The notes under the pieces: generated by a model | Told to the model about the DNA's origin: nothing | The model's database searches: none | The model's input: the letters and a program-made list of their open reading frames with translations, nothing else | Made by a program: the position numbers and the translations under genes | Shown here: positions 7,396 through 41,817 of the stretch, piece by piece | Numbering within the stretch: position 1 is the stretch's first letter | How the letters are laid out: every line of letters begins with the position of its first letter | Origin: Nocardioides bizhenqiangii | Lineage (GTDB): Bacteria > Actinomycetota > Actinomycetes > Propionibacteriales > Nocardioidaceae | Assembly: GCF_034661235.1 (NCBI RefSeq) | Contig: NZ_CP141059.1 | Location: forward strand, 2,789,501 to 2,853,500 | Direction: 5' to 3' | Length of the DNA: 64,000 nucleotides

Positions 7396-10300
7396 CTATC
7401 CTGCCAGGCAGCCGGGTCCGAGCAGCTGCTTGAGGTCGGCGAAGAGCGCCGGGCTCGGAGAGACGCGGAGCCGGTCGTCGAGCCGCATCAGCTTGGTGGC
7501 GTCGCGGGTGAGCAGCCGCAGCCGCACCTCGGTGAGGCCCGGATGGGTACCGAGCACCTCCTTGAGCTGGGCGATGACCGGCGCGGTGCACCGGGTCGCC
7601 GGCAGGCTGATCACGACGGGGCCGTCGTTGTCGGTGTCGAGGTCGGGCACCGTGACTTCCATCGCGTGCAGCTCGGGCTGCTCCTTGTTGCGCGACAGCC
7701 GGCCCTTCACCGTGATGATCGCGTCGGGCACCAGGTGCGTGCTCGCGAGCTGGTAGGCGCTCGGGAAGAGCAGCACCTCGATGGCACCCTCGAGGTCCTC
7801 GAGGGTGATCATCGCCCACGGGTCGCCCTTCTTGGTGATCTTGCGCTGCACGGCGGTGACCAGCCCGCTGACGGTGACCGTTGCCTGGTCGGGCCGCTCC
7901 TCGTCGGTCATCAGCTCACCGATCGTGCAGTCGGCGGTGCCGGCGAGCACGTGCTCGAGCCCCAGCAGCGGGTGGTCGGACACGTAGAGACCGAGCATGT
8001 CGCGCTCGTGGCCGAGCAGCGTGGTCTTGTCCCACTCGTCGAGGTCGGGGATGGTCACGCTGACGCCGAAGTCACCGCCGTCGAGGTCGTCGAGGCCCGC
8101 GAACAGCGAGTCCTGGCCGATCGCCTCGTTGCGCTTGATGTCGACGTACTGGTCGACCGCGGTCTCATGGATCGCGACCAGCGCCCGGCGCCGGTGCTTG
8201 AGGTCGTCGAACGCGCCGGCCTTGATCAGCGACTCGATGACCCGCTTGTTGCAGACCAGCGCCGGCACCTTGTCGAGGAAGTCGTTGAACGACTCGTAGC
8301 GGCCCTTGCTCTCGCGGGCCGCGACGACCTGCTCGACGACGTTGGCGCCGACATTGCGGATCGCGGTCATGCCGAAGCGGATGTCGGTGCCGACCGGCGT
8401 GAAGTTCTTGGCGGACTCGTTGACGTCGGGCGGCAGGACCTGGATCTTGAGCCGCCGGCACTCGCCGAGGTAGATCGCCATCTTGTCCTTGTCGTCCTTC
8501 ACGGACGTGAGGAGCGCCGCCATGTACTCGGCGGTGTAGTTGGCCTTGAGGTAGGCGGTCCAGTAGGAGATGACGCCGTAGGCCGCCGAGTGCGCCTTGT
8601 TGAAGGCGTAGTCGGAGAACGGGAGCAGGATCTCCCACAGCGCGGTGATCGCGCCCTGGGAGTAGCCGCGCTCGAGCATCCCGCTCTGGAAGCCGGCGTA
8701 CTGCTTGTCCAGCTCCTCCTTCTTCTTCTTGCCCATCGCCCGGCGCAGGTTGTCGGCCTGCCCGAGCGTGAAGCCCGCCAGGACCTGGGCGATCTCCATC
8801 ACCTGCTCCTGGTACACGATCAGGCCGTAGGTCTCCCCCAGCACCGGCTCCAGCGCCGTCGCCAGCTCGGGGTGGATCGGGTCGATCGGCTCGCGACCGG
8901 TCTTGCGGCGCGCGTACTTGTTGTGGGAGTCGGCGCCCATCGGTCCGGGTCGGTAGAGCGCGCCGACCGCGGAGATGTCGGCGAACTTGTCGGGCCGCAT
9001 GCTGCGGAGCAGCGCCCGCATCGGGCCGCCGTCGAGCTGGAACACACCGAGGGTGTCGCCCGCCGACATCAGCTCGTAGGTCGCCGGGTCGTCGAATGTC
9101 AGCTCCTCGAGGACGACCTCCTCACCGCGGTTGGCGCGGATGTTGTCGAGCGCGTCGTCGAGGACGGTCAGGTTGCGGAGACCCAGGAAGTCCATCTTGA
9201 CCAGCCCGAGCGCCTCGCACATCGGGTAGTCGAACTGGGTGATGACCGCGCCGTCCTGCGGCCGCGCCATGATCGGCACGATGTCGACCAGGGGCTCGCT
9301 GGACATGATGACGCCGGCGGCGTGGACGCCCCAGTTGCGGATCTGGCCCTCCAGCCCGACCGCAGTCTGGTAGATCGTGCGCACGTCGGTGTCCTGCTCG
9401 TAGAGCGAGCGGAACTCGGCGCCGTCGCCGTAGCGCCGGTGCTCGCTGTTGAAGATCTCCTTGAGCGGGACGCCCTTGCCCATGATGTCGGGCGGGAGCG
9501 CCTTGGTGATCCGGTCGCTGACCGCGAACCCGTAGTCGAGCACGCGGGCGGCGTCCTTGATCGCCGCCTTGGCCTTGAGCCGGCCGAACGTCGCGATGTA
9601 GGCGACCCGGTCACTGCCGTACTTGTCGGAGACGTACTGGATGACCTCGGTGCGCCGACGCTCGTCGAAGTCGATGTCGAAGTCGGGCATGGAGGGCCGC
9701 TCGGGATTGAGGAACCGCTCGAAGATCAGGCCGTGCTCGAGGGGACACAGGTCGGTGATGCGGAGCGCATACGCAGCGATGGATCCGGCGCCGGACCCGC
9801 GGCCCGGCCCGACCCGGATGCCGTTGTCCTTGGACCACTGGATGAAGTCGGCGACCACCAGGTAGTAGCCGCAGTAGCCTTTGCTCGCGATGACGTCGAG
9901 CTCCATCGCGACCCGCTGCTTGACCTCGGGCGTCAGCCGGTCGCCCGGGTAGCGCGACTCGATCCCGCGCCAGACCTCCTTGACGAACCAGGACTCCTCG
10001 ATCTCGCCTGCGGGTACGTCGGCACGGGCCATGTAGCCGCCGTTGGACTCGGTGAACTCGACGTCGCACCGCTCCGCGATCAGCAGCGTGTTGTCGCAGG
10101 CCTCGGGCATCCCGAACCGGTCGGCCCACAGCTCGCGCATCTCGGCGGCGGACTTGATGTAGTAGCCGCCGCCGTCGAACTTGAGCCGGTTGGTGTCGGA
10201 CAGCCGCTTGCCCGAGGCGACGCAGATCAGTGCGTCGTGGGCGTCGGAGTCCTCGGGGTTGTTGTAGTGGGAGTCGTTGGTGGCGACCGGCGGGATGCCG

Positions 10301-10992
10301 AGGTCCTTGCCGAGCCGCAGCAGGTCGTCGCGGACCCGCTTCTCGATGTCGATCCCGTGGTCCATCAGCTCGAGGAAGAAGCTGTCCTTGCCGAAGATCT
10401 CCTGGAACTCGGCGGCCGAGCGACGGGCCTCGTCGTACTGCCCGAGGCGCAGCCGGGTCTGGATCTCACCCGACGGGCAGCCGGTCGTGGCGATCAGGCC
10501 CTTGGCGTAGGTCTGGAGCAGCTCGCGGTCGGCGCGCGGCTTGTAGAAGAAACCCTCGAGGCTCGACCGGGACGAGAGCCGGAACAGGTTGTGCATGCCC
10601 TCGGTCGTCGCGGCCCACATCGTCATGTGGGTGTAGGCACCGCCTCCCGCGACGTCGTCGCCGCCCTCCTCGGCCCCGTTGAAACCGCCGCCCTTGCTCC
10701 ATTTGACTCTACGGCGCTCGGAGCGGTTGGTCTGCGGCGTGAGGTACGCCTCGAGCCCGATGATCGGGCGGATGTCGTGCTTCTTGGCCTTGGAGTAGAA
10801 GTCGTAGGCCCCGTGCAGGTTGCCGTGGTCGGTCATCGCGATCGACGACATGCCGAGGTCGCTCACCCGCGCGAAGAGGCCGTCGAGCAGCGACGCCCCG
10901 TCCAACATGGAGTACTCCGTGTGGACATGGAGGTGGACGAAATCAGATCGGTCCCCGGCGGCTGCCATCTGTGCTGAAGACTCCTCAGACAT
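7396..10992 (-). CDS. dnaE: DNA polymerase III alpha subunit DnaE
   Basis: About 1198 aa, the replicative C-family polymerase. An N-terminal PHP domain starts FVHLHVHTEYSMLDGASL with AMTDHGNLHG and later TNDSHY, carrying its metal-binding His/Asp set. The palm-domain catalytic aspartates lie in MPDFDIDFDERRR near residue 435, with MDFLGLRNLTVLDD further on. The fingers segment GKKKKEELDKQYAGF, helix-hairpin-helix region and a C-terminal OB fold (TVSGLVTAVQRKITKKGDPWA) follow. The frame opens at an ATG at 11034, but a TAGGCT box lies 1 nt before it. ATG 10992 (MSEESSAQ) or 10968 (MAAAGDRSDF) are the credible starts. No intein is seen. The length and PHP features fit the DnaE1 group. Confidence 0.96.
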   Translation of the reverse strand: MSEESSAQMAAAGDRSDFVHLHVHTEYSMLDGASLLDGLFARVSDLGMSSIAMTDHGNLHGAYDFYSKAKKHDIRPIIGLEAYLTPQTNRSERRRVKWSKGGGFNGAEEGGDDVAGGGAYTHMTMWAATTEGMHNLFRLSSRSSLEGFFYKPRADRELLQTYAKGLIATTGCPSGEIQTRLRLGQYDEARRSAAEFQEIFGKDSFFLELMDHGIDIEKRVRDDLLRLGKDLGIPPVATNDSHYNNPEDSDAHDALICVASGKRLSDTNRLKFDGGGYYIKSAAEMRELWADRFGMPEACDNTLLIAERCDVEFTESNGGYMARADVPAGEIEESWFVKEVWRGIESRYPGDRLTPEVKQRVAMELDVIASKGYCGYYLVVADFIQWSKDNGIRVGPGRGSGAGSIAAYALRITDLCPLEHGLIFERFLNPERPSMPDFDIDFDERRRTEVIQYVSDKYGSDRVAYIATFGRLKAKAAIKDAARVLDYGFAVSDRITKALPPDIMGKGVPLKEIFNSEHRRYGDGAEFRSLYEQDTDVRTIYQTAVGLEGQIRNWGVHAAGVIMSSEPLVDIVPIMARPQDGAVITQFDYPMCEALGLVKMDFLGLRNLTVLDDALDNIRANRGEEVVLEELTFDDPATYELMSAGDTLGVFQLDGGPMRALLRSMRPDKFADISAVGALYRPGPMGADSHNKYARRKTGREPIDPIHPELATALEPVLGETYGLIVYQEQVMEIAQVLAGFTLGQADNLRRAMGKKKKEELDKQYAGFQSGMLERGYSQGAITALWEILLPFSDYAFNKAHSAAYGVISYWTAYLKANYTAEYMAALLTSVKDDKDKMAIYLGECRRLKIQVLPPDVNESAKNFTPVGTDIRFGMTAIRNVGANVVEQVVAARESKGRYESFNDFLDKVPALVCNKRVIESLIKAGAFDDLKHRRRALVAIHETAVDQYVDIKRNEAIGQDSLFAGLDDLDGGDFGVSVTIPDLDEWDKTTLLGHERDMLGLYVSDHPLLGLEHVLAGTADCTIGELMTDEERPDQATVTVSGLVTAVQRKITKKGDPWAMITLEDLEGAIEVLLFPSAYQLASTHLVPDAIITVKGRLSRNKEQPELHAMEVTVPDLDTDNDGPVVISLPATRCTAPVIAQLKEVLGTHPGLTEVRLRLLTRDATKLMRLDDRLRVSPSPALFADLKQLLGPGCLAG

Positions 10993-11035
10993 CGTGGACG
11001 ACGGTCCTGAACAGGTGGGGTCGGGGAAGGGCATC

Positions 11036-39282: not shown

Positions 39283-40473
39283 CTACAGCAGGCTCCCCCG
39301 GCGTACGGCGGTCGGGCCGAACCGATCGGTCGCCCGATCGACCGCCCGGTCGGCGTCGGGCCACCCCGGGTCCGGCTCGCCGATGACCAGCTGCCGGCCG
39401 CCGATCTCGCGGCGCGGCCGGAGGCCCTCGACCCTGACGCCCACCAGCCGCACTGCCATCCGCAGCGGGAAGACCGCGTCGAGCAGCAGCAGGGCCGCTT
39501 CGTAGACGTCGTGGGTGACGTCGGTCGGCTCGGGCAGCGTCCGCGACCGCGAGATGGTGCGGAAGTCGCTCCACCGGACCGTGATCGCGACCGTGCGGCC
39601 CACCTTGTCCGCCGCTCGGAGCCGAGCCGTCACCCGGGTCGAGAGGCGGAGCAGCTCGCGCGCGAGCCGGTCGCGGTCACGGGTGTCGGCCGCGAGCGTG
39701 TGCTGCGCACCCATGCTGCCCTCAGGCACGCCCTCGCCGAAGCCGAACGTCCCTGCCCCGCCTGGCGAGAGCTCGCTCCGGTCGGCCCCCCACGCGAGGG
39801 CGTGGAGATGGCCGCCCAGGTGACCGCCGACCATCCGCCGCAGCTCGGCGACCGGCACCCGGGCGACGTCGCCGACCGTGATCAGGCCGAGCCGGTGGAG
39901 CCGCTGGCGGGTCGCCTCGCCGACACCGTAGAGCTCGCCGACGTCGAGCGGATGGACGACCGCGACGAACCGCTCGGGCGGGATGGCGAGCACCCCGTCG
40001 GGCTTGGCCCGCCGGCTCGCCAGCTTGGCGACCGAGACCGCAGCGGCGATACCGACCGAGCAGGTGATCCCGTGCTCGGCACGGACGCGGGAGCGGATCC
40101 GTTCTGCGATCACCTCCGGCGGCCCGAACAACCGGGCCGCGCCACGGACGTCGAGGAACGCCTCGTCGAGGGACATCACCTCGACCACCGGACTGAACCC
40201 ACGGAAGGTCTCCATGATCGCCTTCGACACCGGCCGCAGGACGTCGAAGTCAGGGGGGACCTCGACCAGCCTCGGGCAGAGCCGGCGTGCCTCGCCCCCG
40301 GACATCCCCGAGCGGATGCCGTAGCCACGGGCGGGGTAGTTGGCCGAGAGCACCACGCCGCGGTGGCCGCCACCGACGACGACGGGCACGTCGTGGAGCT
40401 CCGGGCGGTCACGGATCGCCACCGACGCGTAGAACGCGTCCATGTCGACGTGGAGCAGGTGCGGCGCGGTCAT
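39283..40473 (-). CDS. dinB: DNA polymerase IV (Y family) DinB
   Basis: 396 aa. LHVDMDAFYASV and VMSLDEAFLDV carry the three catalytic acids. SVGIAAAVSVAKLASRRAKPDG is the conserved palm segment, followed by the helix-hairpin-helix thumb (LYGVGEATRQRLHRLGLITVGD) and the little-finger domain. It does error-prone bypass synthesis. No clear C-terminal beta-clamp peptide (QLxLF type) stands out. It is the last gene of a cassette starting at an SOS box at 41761, 33 nt after the methyltransferase gene. Confidence 0.96.
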   Translation of the reverse strand: MTAPHLLHVDMDAFYASVAIRDRPELHDVPVVVGGGHRGVVLSANYPARGYGIRSGMSGGEARRLCPRLVEVPPDFDVLRPVSKAIMETFRGFSPVVEVMSLDEAFLDVRGAARLFGPPEVIAERIRSRVRAEHGITCSVGIAAAVSVAKLASRRAKPDGVLAIPPERFVAVVHPLDVGELYGVGEATRQRLHRLGLITVGDVARVPVAELRRMVGGHLGGHLHALAWGADRSELSPGGAGTFGFGEGVPEGSMGAQHTLAADTRDRDRLARELLRLSTRVTARLRAADKVGRTVAITVRWSDFRTISRSRTLPEPTDVTHDVYEAALLLLDAVFPLRMAVRLVGVRVEGLRPRREIGGRQLVIGEPDPGWPDADRAVDRATDRFGPTAVRRGSLL

Positions 40474-40506
40474 CGCGCCGACCGGCGCGGGATAAGGAGA
40501 CGTGCC

Positions 40507-41241
40507 CTAGGTCGCCAGCAGGTGGATCTGGGTCGCGAGCGGGAGGTACTCGGGCAGCTCGGCCACCGCGCGCTCGAGGTCGACGAGGGCCGCGACGGCG
40601 CCGGGCTCATGGTCGAGGAGCGAGCCCGGCACGAGGTCGGTGAACACCCGGACGGCGTGCACGGCCGACACGGCGAACCCCGCCTGCTCGACCAGCGCGC
40701 CGAGCTCGGCGGCGGTGAACCGGCGGGCCGGGCGGGAGGCCCGTCCCGCACGCTCGGCCTGCTCGTCGCCGTCGAGCAACGCCAGCGCCTGGTGGAGGTG
40801 GCCGGCCATCGCCCGGGCCACGACCGCCGCGTGCCGCTGCGCGACCAGGATGCTGACGGTGCCGCCGGGGCGCAGGACCTTGCGGATCGTGGCCAGCGCC
40901 TCGCCGGCGTCGACGACCTCGAGCAGCCCGTGACACAGGACCAGGTCTGCGCTGTCGGTCCCGACCACGTCGAGCAACCCGGAGACGTCGCCCTGGTGGC
41001 CGGCGACCTCGACGCCCACCTCCCGCGCTCGCCGGGCGAGTGCGGCCAGCGCATCGGGGCTCGGATCCACGACGGTGACCCGGTGCCCGGCCTGGGCGAC
41101 CCGGACCGCGAAGCCCCCGGTGCCGCCGCCGATGTCGACGACGTCGCACGGCGCCGCTGACAGCACCGGCCCGAGCGCGTCCCAGACCACGGCGGTGCGG
41201 ACCGAGCCCGGGCGCTCGCCGGGCCGCTCACGGGAGACCAT
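40507..41241 (-). CDS. Class I SAM-dependent methyltransferase
   Basis: 244 aa from ATG 41241; the frame opens at 41298 but TAGTGT lies 7 nt before ATG 41241, which supports this start. Motif I is CDVVDIGGGTGGFAVRVAQ, then VTVVDPSPDAL, GDVSGL and DLVLCHGLLEVVDAGEAL. The fold is that of SmtA/UbiE-like enzymes. The substrate is unknown; tRNA, DNA or small molecules are possible. It lies between the HEPN gene (43 nt) and dinB (33 nt), the same order as in other actinobacterial SAV_6107 loci. Confidence 0.92.
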   Translation of the reverse strand: MVSRERPGERPGSVRTAVVWDALGPVLSAAPCDVVDIGGGTGGFAVRVAQAGHRVTVVDPSPDALAALARRAREVGVEVAGHQGDVSGLLDVVGTDSADLVLCHGLLEVVDAGEALATIRKVLRPGGTVSILVAQRHAAVVARAMAGHLHQALALLDGDEQAERAGRASRPARRFTAAELGALVEQAGFAVSAVHAVRVFTDLVPGSLLDHEPGAVAALVDLERAVAELPEYLPLATQIHLLAT

Positions 41242-41248
41242 GACGGCA

Positions 41249-41254
41249 ACACTA
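41249..41254 (-). promoter_or_regulatory. Putative -10 box of the methyltransferase gene (leaderless)
   Basis: TAGTGT, 7 nt (TGCCGTC), then ATG 41241 on the minus strand. If used, it is an internal start giving methyltransferase and DinB without the SOS-controlled HEPN gene. Confidence 0.5.
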
Positions 41255-41284
41255 GTGCGAGTGCCGGTGATGCCGACGGGTCCC

Positions 41285-41740
41285 TCAGCCTGCGGCACGC
41301 CCGGCGAGCTGGTCGCCGAGCGGGACGTGCGGGGTCAGGCCGAGAGCCTGCTCGACGACAGCCAGGAACCGATCCGCGTCGCGGACCAGGTCGTCGGCAT
41401 CGCGCTCGGTGACCGAGCGCGTGGATCCGGACTCGGCGGCCGCCCGCTTGGCGGCGCCGGAGGCGAAGAACGACGCCCATTCCCCGAGCTCGGGGGCCAC
41501 CTCGGTCAGCAGCACCCACGCGTTCTTCTGCTGGCGCCGGCGGGCCGGCGCGGGGCGCGCCCGGGCGGCGAGGAGTGCGGCCGCGGCGCGCAGCGCGGCC
41601 ACGTGGGCGCAGGCGTAGCGCTCGGCGACGTCACGCGAGCCGACGGCCTCGCTGAGGGACTCCGCCGCACGCCGCAGGTAGGAGTGGGTGGTGGCGGGCA
41701 GGTGGTCGGGGTGTGGAAGCAGGTGCTGCTCGCTGGCCAT
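41285..41740 (-). CDS. SAV_6107-type HEPN domain protein
   Basis: 151 aa, ATG with GAGGAG 6 nt upstream; upstream frame is shadow. Nearly all alpha-helical and Ala/Arg-rich: HSYLRRAAESLSEAVGSRD, then ERYACAHVAALRAAAALLAA, which contains R-x4-H as in HEPN RNase active sites, and a second helix pair near the C terminus. HEPN proteins include RNase toxins and nucleotide-binding helpers. No antitoxin nucleotidyltransferase lies next to it. It heads the cassette under the LexA box. Confidence 0.85.
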   Translation of the reverse strand: MASEQHLLPHPDHLPATTHSYLRRAAESLSEAVGSRDVAERYACAHVAALRAAAALLAARARPAPARRRQQKNAWVLLTEVAPELGEWASFFASGAAKRAAAESGSTRSVTERDADDLVRDADRFLAVVEQALGLTPHVPLGDQLAGRAAG

Positions 41741-41760
41741 GGCTGACTCCTCGGATCGGC

Positions 41761-41780
41761 GTTCGAACATGTGTTCGAAC
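41761..41780. promoter_or_regulatory. LexA/SOS box
   Basis: GTTCGAACATGTGTTCGAAC: the inner TCGAAC-N4-GTTCGA matches the actinobacterial/Bacillus-type SOS box on both arms without mismatch, and the outer G/C bases extend the symmetry. It is 21 nt upstream of the HEPN start codon and 6 nt downstream of a TACCTT -10 box, covering the expected transcription start. Confidence 0.92.
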
Positions 41781-41786
41781 AAGATC

Positions 41787-41817
41787 AAGGTACACCGCTC
41801 CCCCGACACGAGGTCAA
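41787..41817 (-). promoter_or_regulatory. Putative SOS-regulated promoter of the HEPN cassette
   Basis: -10 TACCTT at 41792-41787 with a TTGACC hexamer about 19 nt upstream on the minus strand. The spacer is long, so the -35 is uncertain. The LexA box begins 6 nt beyond the -10. Confidence 0.5.

Follow-up and report, generated by a model that had tools for sequence, protein, structure and literature searches.

The cassette and its promoter

In the 64,000-nucleotide stretch of the Nocardioides bizhenqiangii chromosome analysed here (contig NZ_CP141059.1, positions 2,789,501 to 2,853,500; hereafter the window), three minus-strand genes behind a LexA (SOS) box encode a HEPN protein, an S-adenosylmethionine (SAM)-dependent methyltransferase (MTase), and the Y-family DNA polymerase DinB; a longer SOS operon with error-prone polymerases is widespread in actinobacteria, and this cassette is its short form. 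The leading gene (41285..41740, minus strand; 151 aa from the start ATG at 41740) specifies a member of the SAV_6107 family of HEPN proteins (PF18726; 124.7 bits, cut-off 27.2), the second (40507..41241, minus strand; 244 aa from the ATG at 41241) a CmoM-like MTase (Methyltransf_25, 59.6 bits), and the third (39283..40473, minus strand) a DinB with IMS (163.5 bits), thumb, and IMS_C domains and the motifs VDMDAF and SLDEAF. The C-terminus of DinB, ADRAVDRATDRFGPTAVRR, resembles by eye the RecA-NT motif, and like ends are seen in the majority of 20 relatives compared. The gaps of 43 bases between HEPN and MTase and 33 bases between MTase and DinB make a single transcript plausible.

The LexA box, GTTCGAACATGTGTTCGAAC (41761..41780, a sequence match given without strand), is the sole perfect match to TCGAACANNNGTTCGA in the window. 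It starts 6 bases past TACCTT (41792-41787), and TTGACC (41817-41812) lies another 19 bases upstream, the two hexamers forming a putative minus-strand promoter (41787..41817). An earlier note on this DNA, made without tools, had described a perfect LexA box overlapping the transcription start of three same-strand genes; sequence and profile matches confirm the box and the HEPN, MTase, and DinB genes, and the hexamer spacing makes the overlap with the transcription start a fair reading. That the cassette is a short version of a DnaE2 mutasome operon could not be seen in that way. Of a putative internal promoter, all that is seen is TAGTGT, 7 bases upstream of the MTase start.

Predicted SOS control within the genome and across the class

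The pattern TCGAACN4GTTCGA is matched perfectly in 3 places of the 4,546,893-base genome, while its reversed control pattern is matched in none. Besides the box of the cassette, there is one perfect site (L148, position 2673) ahead of the genes for ImuA' (NCBIfam NF058630; 149 bits, threshold 65) and for an ImuB-like protein of the Y family, and another (L149, position 5872) ahead of a DUF222/HNH gene and, after it, a gene for DnaE2 (error-prone polymerase model; 1411 bits, threshold 939); the three sites are thus placed before the ImuA'-ImuB genes, before the HNH-dnaE2 pair, and before the cassette. The genome thus has ImuA', ImuB, and DnaE2, all of them outside the cassette. That a DUF222/HNH endonuclease gene separates dnaE2 from a perfect LexA box (L149 5872-10511) is a side observation, as is the presence of four one-mismatch LexA sites (L005-L008, G000:C1:684537-684658) near the single LexA match of the genome (PF01726, 91.3 bits, at 684256-684447), an arrangement that fits autoregulation.

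Among 393 genomes of the class, representing 122 genera, PF18726 is found in 238 genomes and 89 genera, with one match in 235 of the 238 and two in the remaining 3, and in a recurring chromosomal neighbourhood. Ninety-two neighbourhoods from these 238 genomes were searched for a LexA-like site, defined as a match at 11 or more of 12 positions within 1300 bases upstream of HEPN. Such a site is present in 87 of the 92 (perfect in 69), compared with 0.95% of 3675 null windows drawn from the loci; of the five without it (L056, L057, L116, L143, and L144), L116 and L143 reach 10. The box lies several hundred bases from HEPN in many relatives because a small gene, DUF6504, intervenes. In two loci (L106 and L107), HEPN stands about 1.4 kb apart from MTase-DinB, and a perfect LexA box precedes each half. 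SOS control of the HEPN gene, which the earlier note had proposed for this strain, is accordingly supported at the level of sequence, and both it and membership of a mutasome-linked operon family are well supported on these grounds.

A second mode of control is suggested by a RecA-NDp/PafBC-type element within the putative promoter (41809-41787, minus strand), which agrees at 10 of 12 positions with what we take to be the RecA-NDp consensus. The spaced hexamers TTGAC-N16-20-TANNNT are found no more than about 60 nt upstream of the box in 38/88 loci, the window included (mean for 88 random 64-mers, 0.07), and a RecA-NDp-type element scoring at least 10/12 occurs in 33/88 loci, against 0.27% of null windows. 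PafBC control of the cassette is nevertheless only a suggestion, because scores of 10 or more are met 7 times in the whole window, the cassette promoter (score 10) included, and the promoters of imuA'-imuB and of HNH-dnaE2 in this genome reach no more than 6 and 8, respectively. Elsewhere in the window, an element matching the same assumed consensus at 11/12 positions (11080-11058, minus strand) lies 24 or about 70 bases, depending on the start, upstream of a further DnaE-type gene (reading frame 7396-11034, minus strand); this gene is probably the replicative dnaE1, and the element is a hint of its damage control.

Long and short forms of the operon

Classification of 90 loci by gene content, 5 of which were too short, distinguishes a long form, in which the order is LexA box, DUF6504, HEPN, DnaE2, MTase, and DinB, then DUF3040, from a short form like that of the window. 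Long forms with DnaE2 account for 33 of the 90 (DUF6504 in 31; MTase in view in 19 and DinB in 27). The intervening small gene is assigned to DUF6504 by PF20114 in the 4 proteins tested; the frame that follows HEPN is approximately 1220-1370 residues long, contains PHP, polymerase, finger, and HhH domains in the two examples tested (L105 and L156), and carries a PDIDxD motif in the 4 inspected. Short forms make up 18 loci, 14 with HEPN-MTase-DinB and 4 with HEPN-DinB, and 2 of these 18 retain DUF6504. In 4 further loci (L156-L159), HEPN is followed by an ImuB-like gene and DnaE2, and then by MTase, DinB, or both; ImuA' was confirmed in L156, the sole one of the four tested for it, and the MTase was not found in L158. 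The remaining loci comprise 2 with HEPN-MTase, 7 with HEPN-DUF3040, and 21 with none of these genes close by. The earlier note had tied its proposal to an order conserved beyond this strain, and this part of it holds, given that HEPN-MTase-DinB without DnaE2 recurs in the 14 loci noted above, from five families. The MTase is not an obligate partner of HEPN, since 12 long forms have no MTase gene between HEPN and DinB and the 4 HEPN-DinB loci have none either.

The form of the operon varies with the presence of ImuB elsewhere in the genome. With the organism's own ImuB protein as query (E <= 1e-15, same 393 genomes), ImuB was detected in 0/33 long-form genomes and 18/18 short-form genomes (Fisher 3.6e-14, uncorrected for descent). 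A DinB tree of 40 rows contains 6 changes between long and short forms, at least 5 of them forced by well-supported branches, and ImuB presence changes along with the form in 5/5 independent pairs. Among the 238 HEPN-bearing genomes, 9 have both DUF6504 and ImuB, 81 DUF6504 only, 91 ImuB only, and 57 neither; when one genome per genus is taken (89 HEPN-bearing genera), the corresponding counts are 3, 45, 32, and 9. DUF6504 and ImuB thus avoid each other among HEPN-bearing genomes. Within the organism's own genus, 20 HEPN genomes divide into 5 with both, 6 with DUF6504 only, 9 with ImuB only, and 0 with neither.

A proposed role for the HEPN protein

We consider it reasonably probable that the cassette represents the shorter version of an actinobacterial SOS translesion-synthesis operon and that HEPN is a non-catalytic, helical accessory of error-prone polymerases. 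DNA damage would give rise to RecA filaments and to cleavage of LexA, whereupon HEPN, MTase, and DinB would be produced jointly. Relatives that lack ImuB have DUF6504 and a DnaE2-type polymerase as additional genes of this LexA-controlled operon, whereas genomes with ImuB elsewhere, like that of the window, have no DnaE2 gene and mostly no DUF6504 at the locus, where HEPN-MTase-DinB or HEPN-DinB stands. HEPN would most likely serve DnaE2 or DinB at stalled forks, possibly through physical association; it might help to assemble the polymerases, hand over between them, or act as a brake that binds nucleic acid. Of the guesses at its task, an accessory role in translesion synthesis has the best support. 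Sequence data in its favour are the LexA box, the gene order and its coupling to ImuB, the separate boxes of L106 and L107, and the missing canonical HEPN histidine, to which the ciprofloxacin response of the probable C. glutamicum HEPN gene, given below, can be added. A more ambitious version, which we put forward tentatively and regard as less probable, sees in HEPN_SAV_6107 a hitherto unrecognised subunit or regulator of the SOS mutasomes of actinobacteria. It would be a HEPN domain that has lost its catalytic role and been recruited to error-prone DNA synthesis; the proposal adds that it would work with whichever mutasome the genome has (DUF6504-DnaE2 or ImuA'-ImuB-DnaE2), that the CmoM-like enzyme would modify a partner, and that the locus would be a slot for mutasome exchange.

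Several results weigh against an accessory role in translesion synthesis, or at least narrow its reach. HEPN occurs without DnaE2, and without MTase or DinB close by, in 28/90 loci, and 57/238 HEPN genomes, 36 of them in genus g23, have neither ImuB nor DUF6504. Conversely, PF18726 is absent from 69/169 ImuB-bearing and 73/163 DUF6504-bearing genomes, including 27/27 ImuB-bearing genomes of g10 and 13/13 of g2; mutasomes in general can do without HEPN. The sign test over the 5 independent pairs gives p 0.0625, the minimum possible for five pairs, and a profile comparison of DUF6504 with ImuB-C was not significant. Finally, g23, taken here for Streptomyces, one of the groups in which the earlier note had proposed to look for LexA boxes as well as gene order, keeps HEPN-MTase and lacks a LexA site of at least 11/12 in 21/21 loci (19 genomes). 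HEPN is, then, a recurring and not a universal neighbour of SOS mutasomes. In 8/19 g23 genomes (L029, L036, L038, L040, L041, L044, L047, and L049), a 10/12 site beginning CCGAAC is located 244-245 bases ahead of the start of the HEPN domain; these sites are perhaps a decayed LexA box, or perhaps a chance match within a conserved stretch.

The earlier note favoured a different account, in which an SOS-induced HEPN RNase halts growth during lesion bypass and the MTase acts as its antidote or protector, and it pointed to an R-x4-H motif in the protein. That motif exists (RYACAH, residues 41-46), the protein has the HEPN fold, the Arg-His pair is retained in 91/110 distinct family sequences, and motif-free HEPN proteins were toxic in a genome-scale screen reported in the 2013 HEPN survey (PMC3710099). 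Its position is at odds with the proposed activity, however: in a predicted structure (pLDDT 76.5) the pair falls in the middle of helix 2, whereas that survey places the catalytic R-x4-6-H of HEPN RNases, with its exposed His, at the end of helix 3 (PMC3710099). At the canonical site, the family keeps an Arg (R99 in 104/110 distinct sequences) but not the His, which is found at +5 in 0/104 and at +6 in 1/104 of the R99-bearing sequences, and at this site the protein thus lacks the signature of catalytic HEPN RNases. The R-x4-H pair is moreover lost in L097, L136, and L139, which keep the LexA site and the DnaE2 operon, and in 15/15 Corynebacterium proteins. Nor do the loci resemble a toxin-antitoxin pair, there being neither a regular two-gene pair nor a patchy or mobile spread: the MTase is missing between HEPN and DinB in the 12 long forms, within reach of the 4 HEPN-DinB loci, and near the 28 further loci, and the gene, with a single match in 235/238 genomes, has a recurring chromosomal place. 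The 2013 survey's table also gives the family as motif-free (PMC3710099). We therefore judge the RNase and antidote account improbable, the least probable of those considered.

Slightly better placed, although still unlikely, is a checkpoint of the cell cycle or division under SOS control, for which the constant setting would be DUF3040 and mraZ at the edge of the division cluster, the polymerases being passing neighbours. This account gains from Corynebacterium, in which the order HEPN-DUF3040-MraZ holds in 15/15 loci and a LexA-like site of at least 10/12 is present in 14/15 (in random windows of 530 starts from these loci, about 8% score as high as 10), and from the 28/90 loci in which HEPN has no polymerase genes close by. 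In ciprofloxacin-treated C. glutamicum, mraZ (cg2378) RNA falls (M -1.13) and the LexA-regulon gene cg2381 rises (M 3.86, equal to recA) (PMC5055667); cg2381 is probably the HEPN gene, judging from its position beside mraZ. A checkpoint would nonetheless leave unexplained the DnaE2 or ImuB-DnaE2 genes that follow HEPN in 37/90 loci and the coupling with ImuB, and the closeness to the division cluster may be mere inheritance. It is also doubtful, to a degree between these two, that the three genes are co-induced neighbours with unrelated tasks, DinB in lesion bypass, the MTase in tRNA modification, and HEPN in something else. In favour of such independence, the MTase and DinB can each be missing from HEPN loci, and in g23 the 2 loci with enough sequence read retain HEPN-MTase although neither DinB nor a LexA site is there, but HEPN-(MTase-)DinB without DnaE2 recurs on separate branches of the DinB tree and, where the halves are split, a separate LexA box stands before each. 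The accessory role in translesion synthesis remains the account that we prefer.

Relation to known systems and outlook

The MTase matches 8joz, named tRNA 5-carboxymethoxyuridine methyltransferase in its database entry, over residues 3-243 (E 1.6e-17); among solved structures, this CmoM entry and 4htf, also CmoM, come closest to it. It is alike to this tRNA cmo5U34 methyltransferase over nearly its whole length and shares the VRVF-x-D stretch, but its 87.9 bits fall short of the NCBIfam CmoM cut-off of 366. HEPN/MNT toxin-antitoxin pairs differ from the cassette, which has no nucleotidyltransferase, no canonical catalytic His, and a HEPN gene that is single and chromosomal. The HEPN protein belongs to the same actinobacterial family as HEPN-M (SAV_6107) of the 2013 survey, whose table enters "No" for Rx4-6H conservation and "-" for architecture or operon (PMC3710099); here, the family is linked to a LexA site and to mutasome genes. 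Public records call several HEPN_SAV_6107 proteins (P0011, P0014, P0063, and others) "chromosome segregation protein SMC", which is misleading.

Two mutasome types invite comparison. The ImuA'-ImuB-DnaE2 mutasome of mycobacteria (NF058630) is likewise LexA-controlled, and no HEPN protein is named in the passages of PMC6511836 consulted on it. ImuB-like and DnaE2 genes follow HEPN in the 4 loci mentioned above, but none of ImuA', ImuB, and DnaE2 lies inside the cassette of the window, and the 27 ImuB-bearing g10 genomes are without PF18726. The second type is the DnaE2-[ImuB-C]-PolY-RecA module, assigned to actinobacteria by a 2026 survey, according to which DnaE2B genomes lack ImuA and ImuB (PMC12926913); the mutual exclusion of ImuB and the long form agrees with that part of the survey. 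The 33 long forms resemble the DnaE2B-[ImuB-C]-PolY-RecA module in their DnaE2-type polymerase, active-looking Y-family polymerase, RecA-NT-like end (by eye), and lack of ImuB in the genome, DUF6504 as the ImuB-C part being unproven, whereas the window cassette differs in having no DnaE2 or DUF6504 at the locus and ImuB in its own genome. The main text of the survey has 0 hits for HEPN, methyltransferase, and DUF6504 (PMC12926913), and no paper was found that adds HEPN or the MTase to the DnaE2/ImuB-C/PolY part described in 2026.

DnaE2 mutasomes drive adaptation through damage-induced mutagenesis, and the actinobacterial parts list of this machinery may be incomplete. A LexA-controlled HEPN gene that stands beside two mutually avoiding mutasome types in many genera, annotated as hypothetical or as SMC, represents a testable missing part; this small helical protein, as yet unstudied, is a candidate for an overlooked partner of mutation-making repair and not for a toxin. 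If this is true, a HEPN domain would be at work outside defence and toxin biology.

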